A stretch of DNA of 64,000 bases. Origin: Marinicella marina (lineage in GTDB: Bacteria > Pseudomonadota > Gammaproteobacteria > Xanthomonadales > Marinicellaceae). Position numbers and translations under genes: made by a program. The notes beneath the pieces were generated by a model. The model was not told the origin of the DNA. It was given only the letters and a program-made list of their open reading frames with translations, and searched no databases. Each line of letters starts with the position of its first letter. The stretch's first letter is position 1. Positions 32,274 through 38,959 of this stretch are shown one piece after another. The stretch lies in NCBI RefSeq assembly GCF_030065545.1, contig NZ_JASJNC010000002.1, positions 434,001-498,000 on the forward strand, written 5' to 3'.

Positions 32274-34739
32274 GTGAATAAACCAGATTGGCTTCAGGCT
32301 TTTCCGTTCATAAATAAACACTGGCGGGATATTTCTACCCTACAAGCAAAGTTCAATGGTTTGGTGCAGTTTGATATAGCCAGCGATTGGCAGCAATTCA
32401 TACAACAATCACAGCAGCATCATGCCAGTTTTGATTGGTTTCACTTACTCCGACTTTATCGACATTCGCGTTTGGCTTATTTGGCCTATCAGGACATTGC
32501 TTTGCCATTAGAGCAGCATGTAAAAACCATGCATATGGTGTCGGCCTTGGCAGATCACTTGATTCAAGTAGCCCATCAGGTCGCTGCTGAAGCAATGCAA
32601 CAAAAACATGGCGTGGTCCTCGATGAGGATGGCCAGGCGGTTGAGTTAATGGTATTTGCTTTGGGTAAGTTAGGCACTTATGAACTGAATTATTCCTCTG
32701 ACGTAGATTTGGTTTTTCTGTATGAGGGCGGTATTCAGTCTGACGGCAAACGATCATTGGCTGCGGCAGACTACTTTATTCGTATGGGACAAAAAATCAT
32801 CAAACTGTTGGATTTTTTCAGCCAGGATGGCCAGGTTTATCGAGTTGACATGCGTTTGCGTCCGTTTGGCTCAGCCAGTCCTTTGGCTTGTTCAGTCAAG
32901 GCCTTACAGCATTATATTTTACACGAGGGTCGTGATTGGGAACGCTTCGCGTGGATGCGTGCCAGAATGATTTGTGGCCAGAGTGAGCTGCCAGTTAGGA
33001 AAATCATTCAGCCGTTTATTTATCGCCGACACCTCGACTATCAAGTGCTGGATGCCTTGCACAGCATCAAAAATGAGATTGCTGCGCATTCGACTGAAGA
33101 TGCAGATAACATCAAAATGGGCTTGGGTGGCATTCGTGTTGTGGAGTTCATCATCCAAAGTTTGCAATTGGTTTTTGGCGGGCGCATGCAACAATTGCAA
33201 GGTACATCGATTCACCCCCAAATTCATAATCTTGCCGCCTTGCAAAAACTAAATAACAATGATGCCAAAACTTTAGAAAATAATTGGCTGATGTTGCGGA
33301 AAATTGAAAACTTGGTTCAAGCCGTTGATGACCAAGCCAATCATGAATACCCAACTGACCCACTAGTGCAGAGAGTGATTGCAGCTGCTTTGGGTTTTAA
33401 TGACTGGCAATCAGCAGCGGCTGGAATCAAAACTCAACGGCGGCAAGTCTCACGTGTCTTTGATGAGCTTTTCAGTACCCATAAAGAGGGCGAAAAACTT
33501 GATGCCAAGCAACGTTCAGTGATTCATCATTTATTAGGTCGTTTGCCCACTTCACGCATGCCCCAACCCAGGTTAGAGCAGGTCACTCAATTGTTTGAAT
33601 TGGTCATTAAAAAAACCCAAGATGAAGTCGTCTTAAGTCGCTTTTCCGATTTACTTAAAAACATCATCAATCGCCCTGCTTATATGATGATGTTGCTAAA
33701 AGAACGTAATTTGTTGACTGCGTTGTTAGGGTTGCTTGGTGAAGATGCTTATTTCGCCAGTAGCCTACAGCAACATCCAGTGCTGTTGGAGCAGTTATTT
33801 GAATATGAGTCTTTTGTTGATTTCGACCAACAGATTTTAGATCAACGATGGAAAGCTCAACAACATGCTGTGGTTGATGTCGAAAGCTGGATGGAGTCAA
33901 TCAGACAATTCAAAAATGTACATCAGTTCAACCTCATGATGGCCTGGGTCAAAGGTGACCTGAGTGATGCAAGGGCCTGTGAACTGTTAACTGTTTTGGC
34001 GCAGTATTTACTGCAGCAAGTCGTTGTCTACAGTCACATGGAAGTCGGTGAGAAATATCCTGAAGCAGCAATTAAAGTGGATGATTTGATTGTCATTGCT
34101 TATGGTTCAGCAGCCACGGGTGAAATGTCGATTCATTCGGATTTAGATTTGGTTTTTGTCTTTGATGGCTTATCAATGGATCATTCCATGCGCCAATTTT
34201 CTCAACGCTGGGTCAAGCGAATCATGAGCCATTTAAGCAGTCAAATGTATAACGGTAAGTTATACGATTTGGACATGCAACTCAGGCCCAATGGCAGCGC
34301 TGGTACTTTAATCACCACCACCAAAGAATTTGCAAACTACCAACACCATCGTGCCTGGGTTTGGGAGCATGCGGCGATGATAAAATCTAAAGTGCTGGTG
34401 GGAAATTCTGCGCAAAAAAAATGGCACCAAGCTTTGCGAGCGTCTGTCATCGCTCAGCCCAGAGATGCATTGCTTGTTGATCAAGCCATGCAAGACATGG
34501 CGTTGAAACTTGCGGCCAAGCCACAAGCAAAAAACCACCAACTGGAGTTTTCGTTGTTGGCCACCGTATTAAAACAAGCGGTGAACCACCCTGAATTATT
34601 ACAACTGCATCAAATCCATCACTTACAACAAAAACTTTCAGAGTTGAAATTGTTGAAAGCCGATGAATTGGATGATAGGAGCACAAAAAAAAGCCCCATT
34701 GGTGATACCAATGGGGCTTTTACAGCAGTTAAAAATTAA
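32274..34739 (+). CDS. glnE: Glutamine synthetase adenylyltransferase GlnE, C-terminally shortened
   Basis: 821 residues from a GTG start. Two nucleotidyltransferase halves are present: adenylyl-removing (FALGKLGTYELNYSSDVDLV; RVDMRLRPFGSASPL; GLGGIRVVEFIIQSLQL) and adenylyl-transferring (IAYGSAATGEMSIHSDLDLV; YDLDMQLRPNGSAG). Escherichia coli GlnE is about 946 residues; the first half starts somewhat late and the C-terminus is short. The expected second GGITDIEF-type motif is degenerate (AKNHQLEFSLLATVLKQAV) and the last helices are missing. The final codons read through the terminator hairpin of convergent fadE. GlnE controls glutamine synthetase by reversible adenylylation; whether the transfer half is fully active here is open. 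Confidence 0.9.
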   Translation: MNKPDWLQAFPFINKHWRDISTLQAKFNGLVQFDIASDWQQFIQQSQQHHASFDWFHLLRLYRHSRLAYLAYQDIALPLEQHVKTMHMVSALADHLIQVAHQVAAEAMQQKHGVVLDEDGQAVELMVFALGKLGTYELNYSSDVDLVFLYEGGIQSDGKRSLAAADYFIRMGQKIIKLLDFFSQDGQVYRVDMRLRPFGSASPLACSVKALQHYILHEGRDWERFAWMRARMICGQSELPVRKIIQPFIYRRHLDYQVLDALHSIKNEIAAHSTEDADNIKMGLGGIRVVEFIIQSLQLVFGGRMQQLQGTSIHPQIHNLAALQKLNNNDAKTLENNWLMLRKIENLVQAVDDQANHEYPTDPLVQRVIAAALGFNDWQSAAAGIKTQRRQVSRVFDELFSTHKEGEKLDAKQRSVIHHLLGRLPTSRMPQPRLEQVTQLFELVIKKTQDEVVLSRFSDLLKNIINRPAYMMMLLKERNLLTALLGLLGEDAYFASSLQQHPVLLEQLFEYESFVDFDQQILDQRWKAQQHAVVDVESWMESIRQFKNVHQFNLMMAWVKGDLSDARACELLTVLAQYLLQQVVVYSHMEVGEKYPEAAIKVDDLIVIAYGSAATGEMSIHSDLDLVFVFDGLSMDHSMRQFSQRWVKRIMSHLSSQMYNGKLYDLDMQLRPNGSAGTLITTTKEFANYQHHRAWVWEHAAMIKSKVLVGNSAQKKWHQALRASVIAQPRDALLVDQAMQDMALKLAAKPQAKNHQLEFSLLATVLKQAVNHPELLQLHQIHHLQQKLSELKLLKADELDDRSTKKSPIGDTNGAFTAVKN
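34685..34722 (-). terminator. Terminator for fadE lying inside the 3' end of glnE
   Basis: A perfect 15-bp stem (34689-34703 with 34707-34721, loop GAT). On the minus strand it ends in eight T residues (complement of the A-run 34685-34692), so it terminates fadE transcription. It is also translated as the last codons of glnE. On the plus strand the T-run is only four, so termination there would be weaker. Confidence 0.85.
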
Positions 34740-37207
34740 GCTACTTTGCTTTGCTCGCTGTCATCTGTTTGAGCTTTGGTGCGATCAAATGCGTCGAATG
34801 GATAATCATCCACTGCCACAATTTCAGCCACTTCTGCCCTGACTTTGGTCAGAGAGTTGAACTCGCTTTTGTTAATGATGTCATTCTCCAAAGCTTGAGC
34901 CAACTGTTTGCTCGGATCGATTTCATTGATTTCGCCGCTCTTAATGGCTTTCAAAATTCTTCTTTCCAAAGGTTCAGTATCAATCACTTTGGCCAACACG
35001 TGATTCATTTTGGCCACGTAGTGATATTCAGACTCTTCTTTGTCAATGCCATCTGTTAAACGCTGGCGTGTTTCATTCGGCGACAACAGCAGGCTGGCTG
35101 CTTTGTGGCCCAAACGATCCCCTGGTGGTAATTCGTGTGTACCCAGTGGGAAAATAACGCGACGCAGGAAGATGCCAACACCTTTGCTGGGGAAGTTGTA
35201 GGACAACATTTTTAAGGCTTGCTCAATTTCATAAAAATGATGGTGCATGGCCCAAGCCACAATGGGTTGGTCAGCACTTTGGTTGCCTTGGTCGCGGTAT
35301 CTCTTCAGTACCGCAGAGGCCATGTATAAATGACTCAATACGTCACCCAAACGGGCCGATGTTTTCTCACGTTTTTTCAATGAACCACCGAGGGTTAACA
35401 TCGATATGTCAGCAGCGAAGCCGAAAGCCGCACTGTAACGAGTGATTTTTGAATAAAATTTCTTAGTGAATTTATCACCAGGACTGCGGTCGAAACGCCA
35501 AGTACCTAAGCCTTGGAAGAAAGAACGCACACCATTTTGGAAGGTGTAACCCATATGTTGAAACAAGTACTTATCAAACTTTTTCAGTGATTCACTCATG
35601 TCTGGTAAGTGCGCCGCTTCCATTTCTTTGAGGACGTATGGATGACACCTGATGGCACCTTGGCCAAAGATGATCATGCTTCTGGTTAAGATGTTGGCAC
35701 CTTCAACAGTGATCCAAATGGGTGCGCCCATCCAAGCCCGGCCTAAATAGTTTTTGGGGCCCATGATAATGCCTTTACCACCATGGATATCCATGGCATC
35801 AGAAATCATGTCTCTGGCCATGTCAGTTACGTGCATTTTAGCAATGGCAGAGGGAACTGCTGGTTTTTCACCGCGATCAACTGCCAATGCAGTCATCGTT
35901 GCGGTAGCAGCAGAAGTATAGGTTTTACCCGCGATGCGACACAAAGCTTCTTCGATACCCTCGAAACGTCCGATGGGCAGGTTAAATTGTTTGCGGATTC
36001 TGGCATAAGCACCCGTTGCAAAAGCATTCATTTTGGCGCCACCAGTTGAACATGATGGCAATGAAATGGCTCGACCAACAGATAAACATTCAACCAACAT
36101 GCGCCAGCCGTGTCCAATCATTTCTTGACCACCAATGACGTAATCCATTGGAATGAAAACGTCTTTGCCTCTGATTGGACCGTTCATGAACATCACATCT
36201 AAAGGTAAATGTCTTCTGCCAATGTCAATGCCTTTGGTGTCCCTGGGAATCAAGGCCAGCGTAATACCTAATTGTTTTTTATCGCCCAATAAACCGTCTG
36301 GGTCCATCATTTGGAAAGCCAAACCAACCACCGTGGCAACGGGTGCCAGGGTGATATAACGTTTGTCAAAGTTGAGGTTGATCCCCAAAACTTCTTTGCC
36401 ATCAATTTTCTTTTTACAGATAACACCGGTATCAGGAATTGAGGTAGCATCTGAACCCGCTGATGGACCAGTCAAACCAAAACAAGGTATTTCCTTGCCT
36501 TGGGATAATCTTGGCAAGTAATGGTCTTTTTGTTCTTCGGTACCGTATTCCAGCAGTAATTCAGCAGGGCCTAAAGAGTTTGGTACAGCAATGGTTGCAG
36601 CTGCAACAGCACTTCTGGAAGAAACTTTCTGCAGCACTGCCGAATGACCCAAAGCAGTGAATTCCAAGCCGCCATACCTTTTGGGGATAATCATGGCGAA
36701 GAATTTGTTTTTCATCATGAAGTCCCATACCTCTTTAGGCATGTCACCTTTGTCATGATTGAATTCATGTTCGTTCAACATGCGACACAGTTCAGCAACT
36801 GGCCCTGCCAAGAACTCTTTCTCGTCACTGCTCAGTTCAGGTTTGTCGATGTCGTGTAATTTCTTAAAGTCTGGTTTACCGGTAAATAACTCGGCATCCC
36901 AATAGACTGTGCCCGCTTCCAGCGCCACTTTCTCGGTTTCAGAAAGTTCTGGTAGAGCTTTGCGATAGAATTTCAAAAAGCCTTTGGTGAAATACTGTTG
37001 TCTGACGCCCTTTAAGTTCAAGAACAGCGCCGGTACAGCAAATACCAAAGCGGCCAAAACAGTGGTAATAAAGCCTGCATCAAAATACCAAATGCCAGCA
37101 ACCAATGTAATCGCGGTTAAAACAGTCCAGCTGGTTACGCTCATGCGAAAATACCCAGCGACTAGTGTGGCGGCTAATAAAAGCCCAATTAAAGTCAAAA
37201 AAGTCAT
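34736..37207 (-). CDS. fadE: Acyl-CoA dehydrogenase FadE
   Basis: 823 residues, near the 814 of Escherichia coli FadE. Two N-terminal membrane segments are followed by the acyl-CoA dehydrogenase core: FGLTGPSAGSDATSIPDTG, the flavin-binding region, AKMHVTDMARDMISDAMDIH and GGKGIIMGPKNYLGRAWMGA. A long C-terminal extension is typical of FadE. It catalyses the first step of fatty-acid beta-oxidation at the membrane. It converges on glnE (the stops overlap) and is divergent from a TetR gene that probably controls it. Confidence 0.95.
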   Translation of the reverse strand: MTFLTLIGLLLAATLVAGYFRMSVTSWTVLTAITLVAGIWYFDAGFITTVLAALVFAVPALFLNLKGVRQQYFTKGFLKFYRKALPELSETEKVALEAGTVYWDAELFTGKPDFKKLHDIDKPELSSDEKEFLAGPVAELCRMLNEHEFNHDKGDMPKEVWDFMMKNKFFAMIIPKRYGGLEFTALGHSAVLQKVSSRSAVAAATIAVPNSLGPAELLLEYGTEEQKDHYLPRLSQGKEIPCFGLTGPSAGSDATSIPDTGVICKKKIDGKEVLGINLNFDKRYITLAPVATVVGLAFQMMDPDGLLGDKKQLGITLALIPRDTKGIDIGRRHLPLDVMFMNGPIRGKDVFIPMDYVIGGQEMIGHGWRMLVECLSVGRAISLPSCSTGGAKMNAFATGAYARIRKQFNLPIGRFEGIEEALCRIAGKTYTSAATATMTALAVDRGEKPAVPSAIAKMHVTDMARDMISDAMDIHGGKGIIMGPKNYLGRAWMGAPIWITVEGANILTRSMIIFGQGAIRCHPYVLKEMEAAHLPDMSESLKKFDKYLFQHMGYTFQNGVRSFFQGLGTWRFDRSPGDKFTKKFYSKITRYSAAFGFAADISMLTLGGSLKKREKTSARLGDVLSHLYMASAVLKRYRDQGNQSADQPIVAWAMHHHFYEIEQALKMLSYNFPSKGVGIFLRRVIFPLGTHELPPGDRLGHKAASLLLSPNETRQRLTDGIDKEESEYHYVAKMNHVLAKVIDTEPLERRILKAIKSGEINEIDPSKQLAQALENDIINKSEFNSLTKVRAEVAEIVAVDDYPFDAFDRTKAQTDDSEQSKVA

Positions 37208-37232
37208 GGTTGTTTCCTAAGTTTTTAGTAAC

Positions 37233-37246
37233 ATACGGTATAGTAT
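37233..37246. promoter_or_regulatory. Operator-like dyad 1 in fadE/TetR region
   Basis: ATACGGTATAGTAT, of form ATACG-N5-GTAT; with flanking bases it reads CATAC-N6-GTATG. It overlaps the predicted fadE -10. Matches the second dyad at 37270. Confidence 0.6.
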
Positions 37247-37270
37247 GGTGTTAGTTTGTGCGTTTGTCAA
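37242..37270 (-). promoter_or_regulatory. Predicted fadE promoter
   Basis: On the minus strand, -35 TTGACA (37270-37265) and -10 CATACT (37247-37242) with 17-base spacing, 34 bases before the fadE ATG at 37207. The perfect -35 makes this one of the better promoters in the window. Confidence 0.6.
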
Positions 37271-37283
37271 TACGCAAGCGTAT
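37270..37283. promoter_or_regulatory. Operator-like dyad 2 in fadE/TetR region
   Basis: ATACGCAAGCGTAT, a 6-bp inverted repeat with AA centre, same ATACG-N5-GTAT form as the dyad at 37233, starting 37 bases later. It touches the outer edge of the fadE -35. Confidence 0.6.
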
Positions 37284-37302
37284 GGAAAATTTAAAAATCT
37301 CA

Positions 37303-37330
37303 TTGACCACGCAGGAATTATCTTTATGAT
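37303..37330 (+). promoter_or_regulatory. Candidate promoter for the TetR gene
   Basis: TTGACC (37303-37308) and TATGAT (37325-37330), spacing 16, upstream of the ATG at 37376. A further GTAT-AAA-ATAC dyad (37365-37375) abuts the start codon. Confidence 0.45.
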
Positions 37331-37375
37331 AATACTCGCTTGTAACTATTTCATTATGCCCAGCGTATAAAATAC

Positions 37376-37957
37376 ATGAAAAATAACAACAAAAAGAAAT
37401 CATTAAACCCTGCAGATTGGGAACTGGCCACTTTAGATGTCATTGCTCATCAAGGCGTCAGTGCGGTTGCTGTTGAGAACATTGCTAAGGCACTTGGAGT
37501 TACCAAAGGCAGTTTTTATTGGCATTTTACTAATCGCAAAGACTTGATAGTGGCGGCATTGAAACGTTGGCAGAAAGATGACCGTGCTGTGATTAAGGAA
37601 AAAATTTGGTCACTTCCTGATGCACATGAGCGATTGAAGGCTTGGTTTTTACTCAGTGCAGAGCCATTACAAAGCCATTTGATTTATGCCACTTTACTGG
37701 CAGACAGACAGCATGACTTTGTTGCCAAAGTGCTCAAAGAAGTGACCTTGGAACGCTTGGCATACCTGCAGAAATCTTATCAGGGCATCGGCTATGATGA
37801 GGCCACTTCAAAACAACAGGCCTTGCTGTCTTATTCGGTATATGTCGGCTACTTGCACATGGCCAAAACCTTGCACGGCAAATTCAAAGACACAGAAAAT
37901 ATCGAAAACTATGCAAAATACGTGGCATCGCAGTTGATTCATGAGCCCGAGCAATAA
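37376..37957 (+). CDS. TetR-family transcriptional regulator, likely controls fadE
   Basis: 193 residues. The helix-turn-helix is VENIAKALGVTKGSFYWHFT, ending with the family hallmark NRKDLIVAALKRW. The C-terminal domain is helical and of the ligand-binding type. It is divergent from fadE, and the 168 bases between them contain two matching dyads on the fadE promoter, so it is most likely a repressor of fadE that releases on an acyl-CoA or similar signal. Not close enough to FadR (GntR family) or PsrA to name. Confidence 0.85.
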   Translation: MKNNNKKKSLNPADWELATLDVIAHQGVSAVAVENIAKALGVTKGSFYWHFTNRKDLIVAALKRWQKDDRAVIKEKIWSLPDAHERLKAWFLLSAEPLQSHLIYATLLADRQHDFVAKVLKEVTLERLAYLQKSYQGIGYDEATSKQQALLSYSVYVGYLHMAKTLHGKFKDTENIENYAKYVASQLIHEPEQ

Positions 37958-38062: not shown

Positions 38063-38959
38063 ATGCTTCGCCTTATAACTACAATATTATTGTCGGCGTT
38101 CTGCACCAGTAACATGGCCGCAGTGATGGCTTATTCTGTGGCTGATGATAATTTTGAAATGCCAGATCATTTGGTGGTTATTGACCTTGAGACCGGTGAA
38201 TATGAAAGCAGAGGTAAGATTGCAGATCCTTACATAGCGCTTGAGGGTTTGGCTATATCGCCAAGCGGTGTTTTATTCGGTGCCGATGACAACACCAAGA
38301 CGCTGGTTCAAATTAACACCAATGAGGCCCGTGCTTTCCCAGTCAATAACGTCAATCAAAACCTCGGTTTTGGCGCCATTCCCGCCAGTTATGATTTTGG
38401 TATGACCTTCAGCTGTGATGATAAATTACACATGGTCGTTAAAGACACCCAAGAATTATACGAAGTCAATGCCTCCACAGGTGAAGCCAGTTTGATAGGT
38501 AATACTGGACATAATTTCACTTCTTTGGCCGCTTGGGGTGATGACTTGTATTCAATTGCTTCTGGTGAGTTTACGCTGTACAAAGTAGACAAAACGACAG
38601 CAGAGGCCACTGTTGTTGGTGAGCTGGGCGATTTGGGTGGTGACATCGAATTGGCTGGTTCAGGCATGGCATTTGATGAATCAGGCGATTTATGGATGGT
38701 GGTCAATTTGCGCTTATCTGATCCGCTGAACCCTTTCCCATCACGGGTATTCAAAATAAATACCACAACGGGTGAGGCAACTTTAGTTTCAGAAACGTTG
38801 GTTGGTATTGAGTCCTTGGCCATCAGTGGTCCTGGTGGCTGTGAGTTCGGTCCTGGTGGTGTACAACCAGTTCCTGTCGATAATCCATTTTCTCTGTTGT
38901 TGCTGATTTTGGCGATGATGGGTGTTTCAGCATTCACGCTGCAACGCAGCAGTATTTAA
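38063..38959 (+). CDS. Secreted propeller-like protein with C-terminal sorting-type signal
   Basis: 298 residues with a signal peptide (cleavage near NMAAVMA). The body has repeated blades of the form ETGEYESRGKI, STGEASLIGNT, TTAEATVVGEL, TTGEATLVSET, as in DUF4394- or NHL-like propellers. The C-terminus has a short Pro-containing motif (VPVDNPF), a hydrophobic helix (SLLLLILAMMGVSAFTL) and basic end QRSSI, matching the three-part layout of IPTL/PEP-CTERM-type sorting signals. It may be anchored and then processed by an exosortase or rhombosortase-like enzyme; none is seen in this window. Function unknown. Confidence 0.75.
   Translation: MLRLITTILLSAFCTSNMAAVMAYSVADDNFEMPDHLVVIDLETGEYESRGKIADPYIALEGLAISPSGVLFGADDNTKTLVQINTNEARAFPVNNVNQNLGFGAIPASYDFGMTFSCDDKLHMVVKDTQELYEVNASTGEASLIGNTGHNFTSLAAWGDDLYSIASGEFTLYKVDKTTAEATVVGELGDLGGDIELAGSGMAFDESGDLWMVVNLRLSDPLNPFPSRVFKINTTTGEATLVSETLVGIESLAISGPGGCEFGPGGVQPVPVDNPFSLLLLILAMMGVSAFTLQRSSI

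Follow-up and report, generated by a model that had tools for sequence, protein, structure and literature searches.

Two conserved 18-bp palindromes in the fadE promoter of Marinicella as probable operators of a TfmR orthologue

In this work we describe two 18-bp palindromes, O1 and O2, in the fadE promoter of Marinicella (order Lysobacterales), found in a 64,000-nucleotide stretch of the genome G000 (G000:C12:434001-498000), called the window below. We put at close to 0.9 the probability that both are bound by the product of the divergent TetR-family gene, an orthologue of Xanthomonas TfmR, acting as a fatty-acid-responsive repressor with fadIJ co-regulated. That both sites are operators of this regulator on the fadE promoter had been proposed in a sequence-only reading of the same DNA, and the proposal is now supported by footprints in the genus and in the order, by further copies of the site at fatty-acid genes, fadIJ and fadH among them, and by the published properties of X. 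citri TfmR (PMC6637906). The sequences show the sites, how they lie in the promoter and how far they are conserved, together with the orthology and the shared regulon.

The palindromes lie in the gap (37208-37375) between fadE and the divergent TetR-family gene, and both flanking genes are solid by family models (Table 1). The fadE product scores 1098 bits against NCBIfam NF007000 (cut-off 600) and contains Pfam ACDH_C; it scores 1093 bits against NF038187 (FadE_coli), which is under that model's own cut-off of 1300. The regulator matches Pfam TetR_N with 48 bits (cut-off 24), and its AlphaFold model is all-helical and TetR-like (pLDDT 91). The fadE promoter, TTGACA-17-CATACT on the fadE strand (from 37270 to 37242), shares the top rank among promoter-like matches of the interval (10/12 in the promoter scan), in agreement with the perfect TTGACA noticed earlier. 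The motif ATACG-N5-GTAT is exact at the two places where it had been reported (37233-37246 and 37270-37283), and the fadE -10 does sit within the first site, in the right half of O1. The second site had been described as abutting the -35; the two are indeed adjacent, but they do more than abut, as the overlap with the -35 is one base (A37270) for the 14-mer and two bases for the 18-bp palindrome. The operator consensus is CMATACGN4NGTATGG with free centre bases, and a free-centre palindrome of this kind is a typical site for a TetR dimer. Position 12 of the palindrome is mostly C in O2 and mostly A in O1, where it gives the last T of CATACT, so that operator and promoter letters overlap.

Table 1. 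Coordinates of the features discussed (positions in the window, except for the last line).
Feature	Position	Strand	Description	Evidence
fadE	34736..37207	-	823-aa acyl-CoA dehydrogenase	NCBIfam and Pfam
O1, ACATACGGTATAGTATGG	37231..37248		Operator 1, covers fadE -10	Conserved in genus and order
fadE -10	37242..37247	-	CATACT, 17-bp spacer	Promoter scan; CATACT here in 75/96 order loci
fadE -35	37265..37270	-	TTGACA	99% mean identity, 16 genus loci; promoter scan
O2, CAATACGCAAGCGTATGG	37269..37286		Operator 2, overlaps fadE -35	Conserved in genus; part of order loci
tfmR -35	37303..37308	+	TTGACC	Invariant, 16 genus loci; promoter scan
tfmR -10	37325..37330	+	TATGAT, 16-bp spacer	Genus-conserved; promoter scan
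GTAT-AAA-ATAC	37365..37375		Proposed earlier; rejected as operator	Not conserved
tfmR orthologue	37376..37957	+	193-aa TetR-family regulator	Pfam TetR_N; order-wide orthologues
Paralogue palindrome pair, L121 (G012:C1)	1686 and 1718		TetR gene at 990-1535	

In a MAFFT alignment of 16 Marinicella loci, mean identity to the window reaches 94% in O1, 96% in O2 and 99% in the fadE -35; it is 43% in the DNA between the two operators and 54% in the leader. Across the order O1 is present in all 96 distinct loci, so the motif is conserved in relatives, the lack of which the sequence-only reading would have taken as a refutation. O2 is found in 60 of the 96 and absent from the other 36; its distance from O1 is 36-38 bp, except for two loci with 48 bp. 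A TTGAC -35 mostly lies 16-18 bp from the -10 hexamer. The conserved sites read ATAC-N6-GTAT, with half-sites that are constant across the order; this invariance is partly by construction, since the scan that gathered the 18-mers across the order favours ATAC/GTAT, and the genus alignment is unaffected by it. A comparable 18-mer occurs in 4 of 4800 shuffled regions. The exact 14-mer ATACGN5GTAT was discarded as a genome-wide test of its own, being uninformative with 15 genome matches against 14 for the backwards pattern. Three things stand above chance: the 18-bp site in full, its occurrence as a pair 37 bp apart on the promoter, and the conservation. That there is no operator at all, and that we see chance together with ordinary conservation of promoter hexamers, is extremely improbable: the -10 and -35 do account for part of the conservation, and the 14-mer is not enriched genome-wide, but in the genus alignment the palindrome halves lying beyond the hexamers vary as little as the hexamers do, and the site is found again at fadIJ, fadH and fabAB, which is not the case for a reversed profile.

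This recurrence was observed with a sequence-only profile derived from Marinicellaceae sites and run on 18 Marinicella genomes, with roughly calibrated E-values. Among the candidates scored, the best places in G000 are O2 (E 0.005), a site upstream of fadI on contig C19 (0.010) and O1 (0.05), the next one being at 0.68, and the profile finds both fadE sites and one fadIJ site in most Marinicella genomes. A control profile with reversed letters gave 4 matches at E<=1 in the 18 genomes, among candidates scored. The genome-wide scan near fad genes that had been suggested as a check is thus positive once the full 18-bp site is used. The fadI-fadJ site has the form TTGACA-ATACGCATGCGTATGGT-GAAAAT, in which the operator fills the 17-bp spacer between -35 and -10, and this form is kept in many Marinicella and in sister genera. 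Run on 81 genomes, an order-wide profile returns mostly the tfmR/fadE locus among the candidates scored.

We examined fadH because X. citri TfmR binds it in vitro and in vivo (EMSA, ChIP; PMC6637906). A site lies 36-56 bp before the fadH start in 5/5 Xanthomonas/Stenotrophomonas genomes, for example CCGTACGCCAGCGTATCC and CCATACGCAAGCGTATCC, for a background rate of about 0.9% per 300-bp stretch for sites as good as these; the five genomes are related and do not count as five independent events, and no Xanthomonas fadH site was used in motif building. In G000 the fadH gene is present with no site within 300 bp, which indicates that the regulon differs between genera. A sister genus of Marinicella has sites at fadH, and 4 of its 5 genomes examined have one or two sites before fabA-fabB, at a distance of 173-214 bp (L178/L179, about 1938-1980), which suggests a link from control of fatty-acid degradation to unsaturated fatty-acid synthesis. 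The Marinicella genomes tested gave no close fabA match.

The regulator has full-length relatives across Lysobacterales; in most cases their gene is oriented divergently to fadE, or to an alpha/beta hydrolase gene with fadE behind it. This synteny agrees with the published Xanthomonas arrangement tfmR-mhpC-fadE, in which mhpC is present. Identity to most Xanthomonadaceae orthologues is 37-43% over the full length, with a conserved core, and 40 orthologues show no variation in the recognition-helix region, TKGSFYWHF. From synteny together with best match, the TetR gene of the window is identified as the orthologue of Xanthomonas TfmR, the comparison having been made through same-genus sequences in place of XAC3052 itself. 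Known equivalog models all score the regulator far under cut-off, and sequence and fold searches of the PDB return only generic TetR matches, from which the ligand is not readable.

The possibility that the sites belong to another regulator, for example a paralogous TetR protein whose recognition helix is similar, and that the divergent gene is a bystander, appears very unlikely. Several Marinicella do have a second TetR gene whose helix, VTKGSFYHWF, resembles that of TfmR, and this gene comes with its own CATACC-N4-GGTATG pair 32 bp apart (Table 1). A good fadI site is present in G014, where neither tfmR nor fadE was detected, this genome being a draft in 460 contigs. Against these two points, the association of the sites with tfmR at fadE holds throughout the order, binding to mhpC/fadE and to fadH is documented for TfmR itself in X. 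citri (PMC6637906), and G018, which belongs to the same family and is complete (4.7 Mb in 2 contigs), has no close match for tfmR, fadE or fadI and likewise none for the operator. In G009, which is without tfmR and fadE, the fadI site has a changed half.

In X. citri, TfmR (XAC3052) represses mhpC/fadE 50-100 fold, binds the mhpC-fadE promoter with a Kd of 87 nM, and is displaced by fatty acids of C14 and longer and not by C6-C8 (PMC6637906). Binding, repression and ligand of the Marinicella protein are inferred by analogy with this work. TfmR dimers would occupy the two 18-bp palindromes, about 3.5 helical turns apart, O1 over the -10 and O2 overlapping the -35, and would keep RNA polymerase off the fadE promoter by steric block; at fadIJ, the third operator copy in the 17-bp spacer would cause the same block. 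Long-chain fatty acids or their CoA esters, once they build up, would bind TfmR, which would then leave the DNA, so that three beta-oxidation enzymes, the acyl-CoA dehydrogenase, the thiolase and the hydratase/dehydrogenase, would be made together.

The two operators might both be bound by TfmR and nevertheless have different jobs, O1 repressing and O2 helping to activate fadE or acting on tfmR. They are not equivalent, as O1 is always kept across the loci in which O2 can be missing, and O2 lies partly upstream of the fadE -35. X. oryzae TfmR is moreover reported to activate hrpX and rpfG (PMC11173191), which means that TfmR need not act as a repressor only and fits an activating role of O2. 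We consider this division of labour unlikely, because O2 overlaps the fadE -35 and is separated from the tfmR -35, on its upstream side, by 16 bp, because the spacer-filling fadIJ site fits repression only, and because in X. citri without TfmR fadE goes up 50-100 fold with no change at the tfmR promoter (PMC6637906).

The same X. citri result bears on autoregulation, which had been proposed to act through GTAT-AAA-ATAC at the tfmR start codon. This motif is present in the window, but the segment that holds it (37362-37375) averages 18% identity across the genus, so it looks like a chance occurrence and we rejected it as an operator. Since the genus alignment reveals no conserved operator overlapping the tfmR promoter, and since deletion of tfmR in X. 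citri left tfmR promoter activity unchanged (PMC6637906), we do not retain autoregulation. A conserved half-site, GCGTATGGTTAAA, is found just before tfmR in Xanthomonadaceae (Xanthomonas/Lysobacter loci, e.g. L073) and not in Marinicella; it is possibly a tfmR promoter element or a half-operator.

The proposed repression of fadE by TfmR from both O1 and O2 can be compared with known systems of fatty-acid control. The closest is TfmR of X. citri, also a TetR regulator divergent from fadE, for which no tfmR autoregulation is seen. The two proteins share only about 40% identity, and Marinicella differs in having no mhpC between the genes, no fadH site in G000, and a fadIJ site; the operator is common to fadE and fadH in Xanthomonas and to fadE in Marinicella. 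PsrA (Pseudomonas, Shewanella) and Smlt2053 (Stenotrophomonas) are, like TfmR, TetR-family fatty-acid-responsive repressors of beta-oxidation genes, but PsrA is 18% identical to TfmR and its site, G/CAAAC-N2-4-GTTTG/C, is unlike the ATAC/GTAT sites described here. TetR-type FadR (Bacillus, Thermus) has the same fold and logic, being a fad repressor that long-chain acyl-CoA releases. The fold matches of our regulator include Bacillus FadR with stearoyl-CoA, along with many other TetR proteins that match equally well, and a specific relation in sequence is not seen, the corresponding NCBIfam equivalog, NF053878, giving 27 bits for a cut-off of 200. GntR-type FadR of Escherichia coli represses fad genes and activates fabA/fabB. 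It shares with the TfmR sites the control of fad and, as in the sister genus, the link to fabA/fabB, but it belongs to an unrelated protein family, our regulator matching TetR_N only. FadP, a predicted TetR-family regulator of fatty-acid degradation described as confined to beta-proteobacteria (PMC5343134), resembles TfmR in family and in predicted role.

TfmR was already published as a regulator of fatty acids and virulence in Xanthomonas. Neither a consensus nor a binding-site description is given in the X. citri paper (PMC6637906), and we found no TfmR motif in the X. oryzae paper (PMC11173191) or in the wider open-access literature, relative to which the 18-bp operator is newly defined. 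Together with the conserved regulon, the motif allows target prediction in any Lysobacterales genome, and it helps to ask how the metabolic and virulence roles of TfmR connect. Alongside FadR, PsrA and FadP, TfmR is also a further example of how control of fad passes between regulators that are unrelated. More tentatively, TfmR may be the master fatty-acid regulator of Lysobacterales, controlling in the sister genus both degradation (fadE, fadIJ, fadH) and unsaturated synthesis (fabA-fabB). We hold this to be possible rather than probable; if true, TfmR would have evolved independently into a counterpart of E. coli FadR, a protein unrelated to it.

Several further matches were recorded. Three with no fatty-acid gene lie inside a coding sequence (L118), by an ABC transporter (L117) and by an acetyltransferase-like gene (L213), for which reason weak single matches are not trusted. 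A weaker site, CATACGC-NN-CAGTATC (G000:C21:287843, L119; also L186 and L187), adjoins a phospholipase gene of the VolA/Pla-1 family in at least three Marinicella, this gene being divergent from a DASS symporter in two, and weak matches similar to it occur in other genomes of the genus. In one Marinicella (G013:C1:544764, L120), an enoyl-CoA hydratase gene is preceded by a strong site. Judged by eye from the translations, sites also lie upstream of an apparent DUF4442 hotdog-fold (thioesterase-like) gene in two genera (L202, Xanthomonas; L215, G040) and near a second acyl-CoA-dehydrogenase-like gene (L195, S. maltophilia; L204, G066). In two genomes of a third genus (L182 and L185, in G022 and G024), a weak site, CAATACTGTGGCGTATTG, is found about 110 bp upstream of citrate synthase. 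Finally, the region downstream of tfmR in the window (38063-38959) encodes a DUF4394-like protein that carries a membrane tail at its C-terminus; in G004 (L087), tfmR is likewise followed by a related gene.
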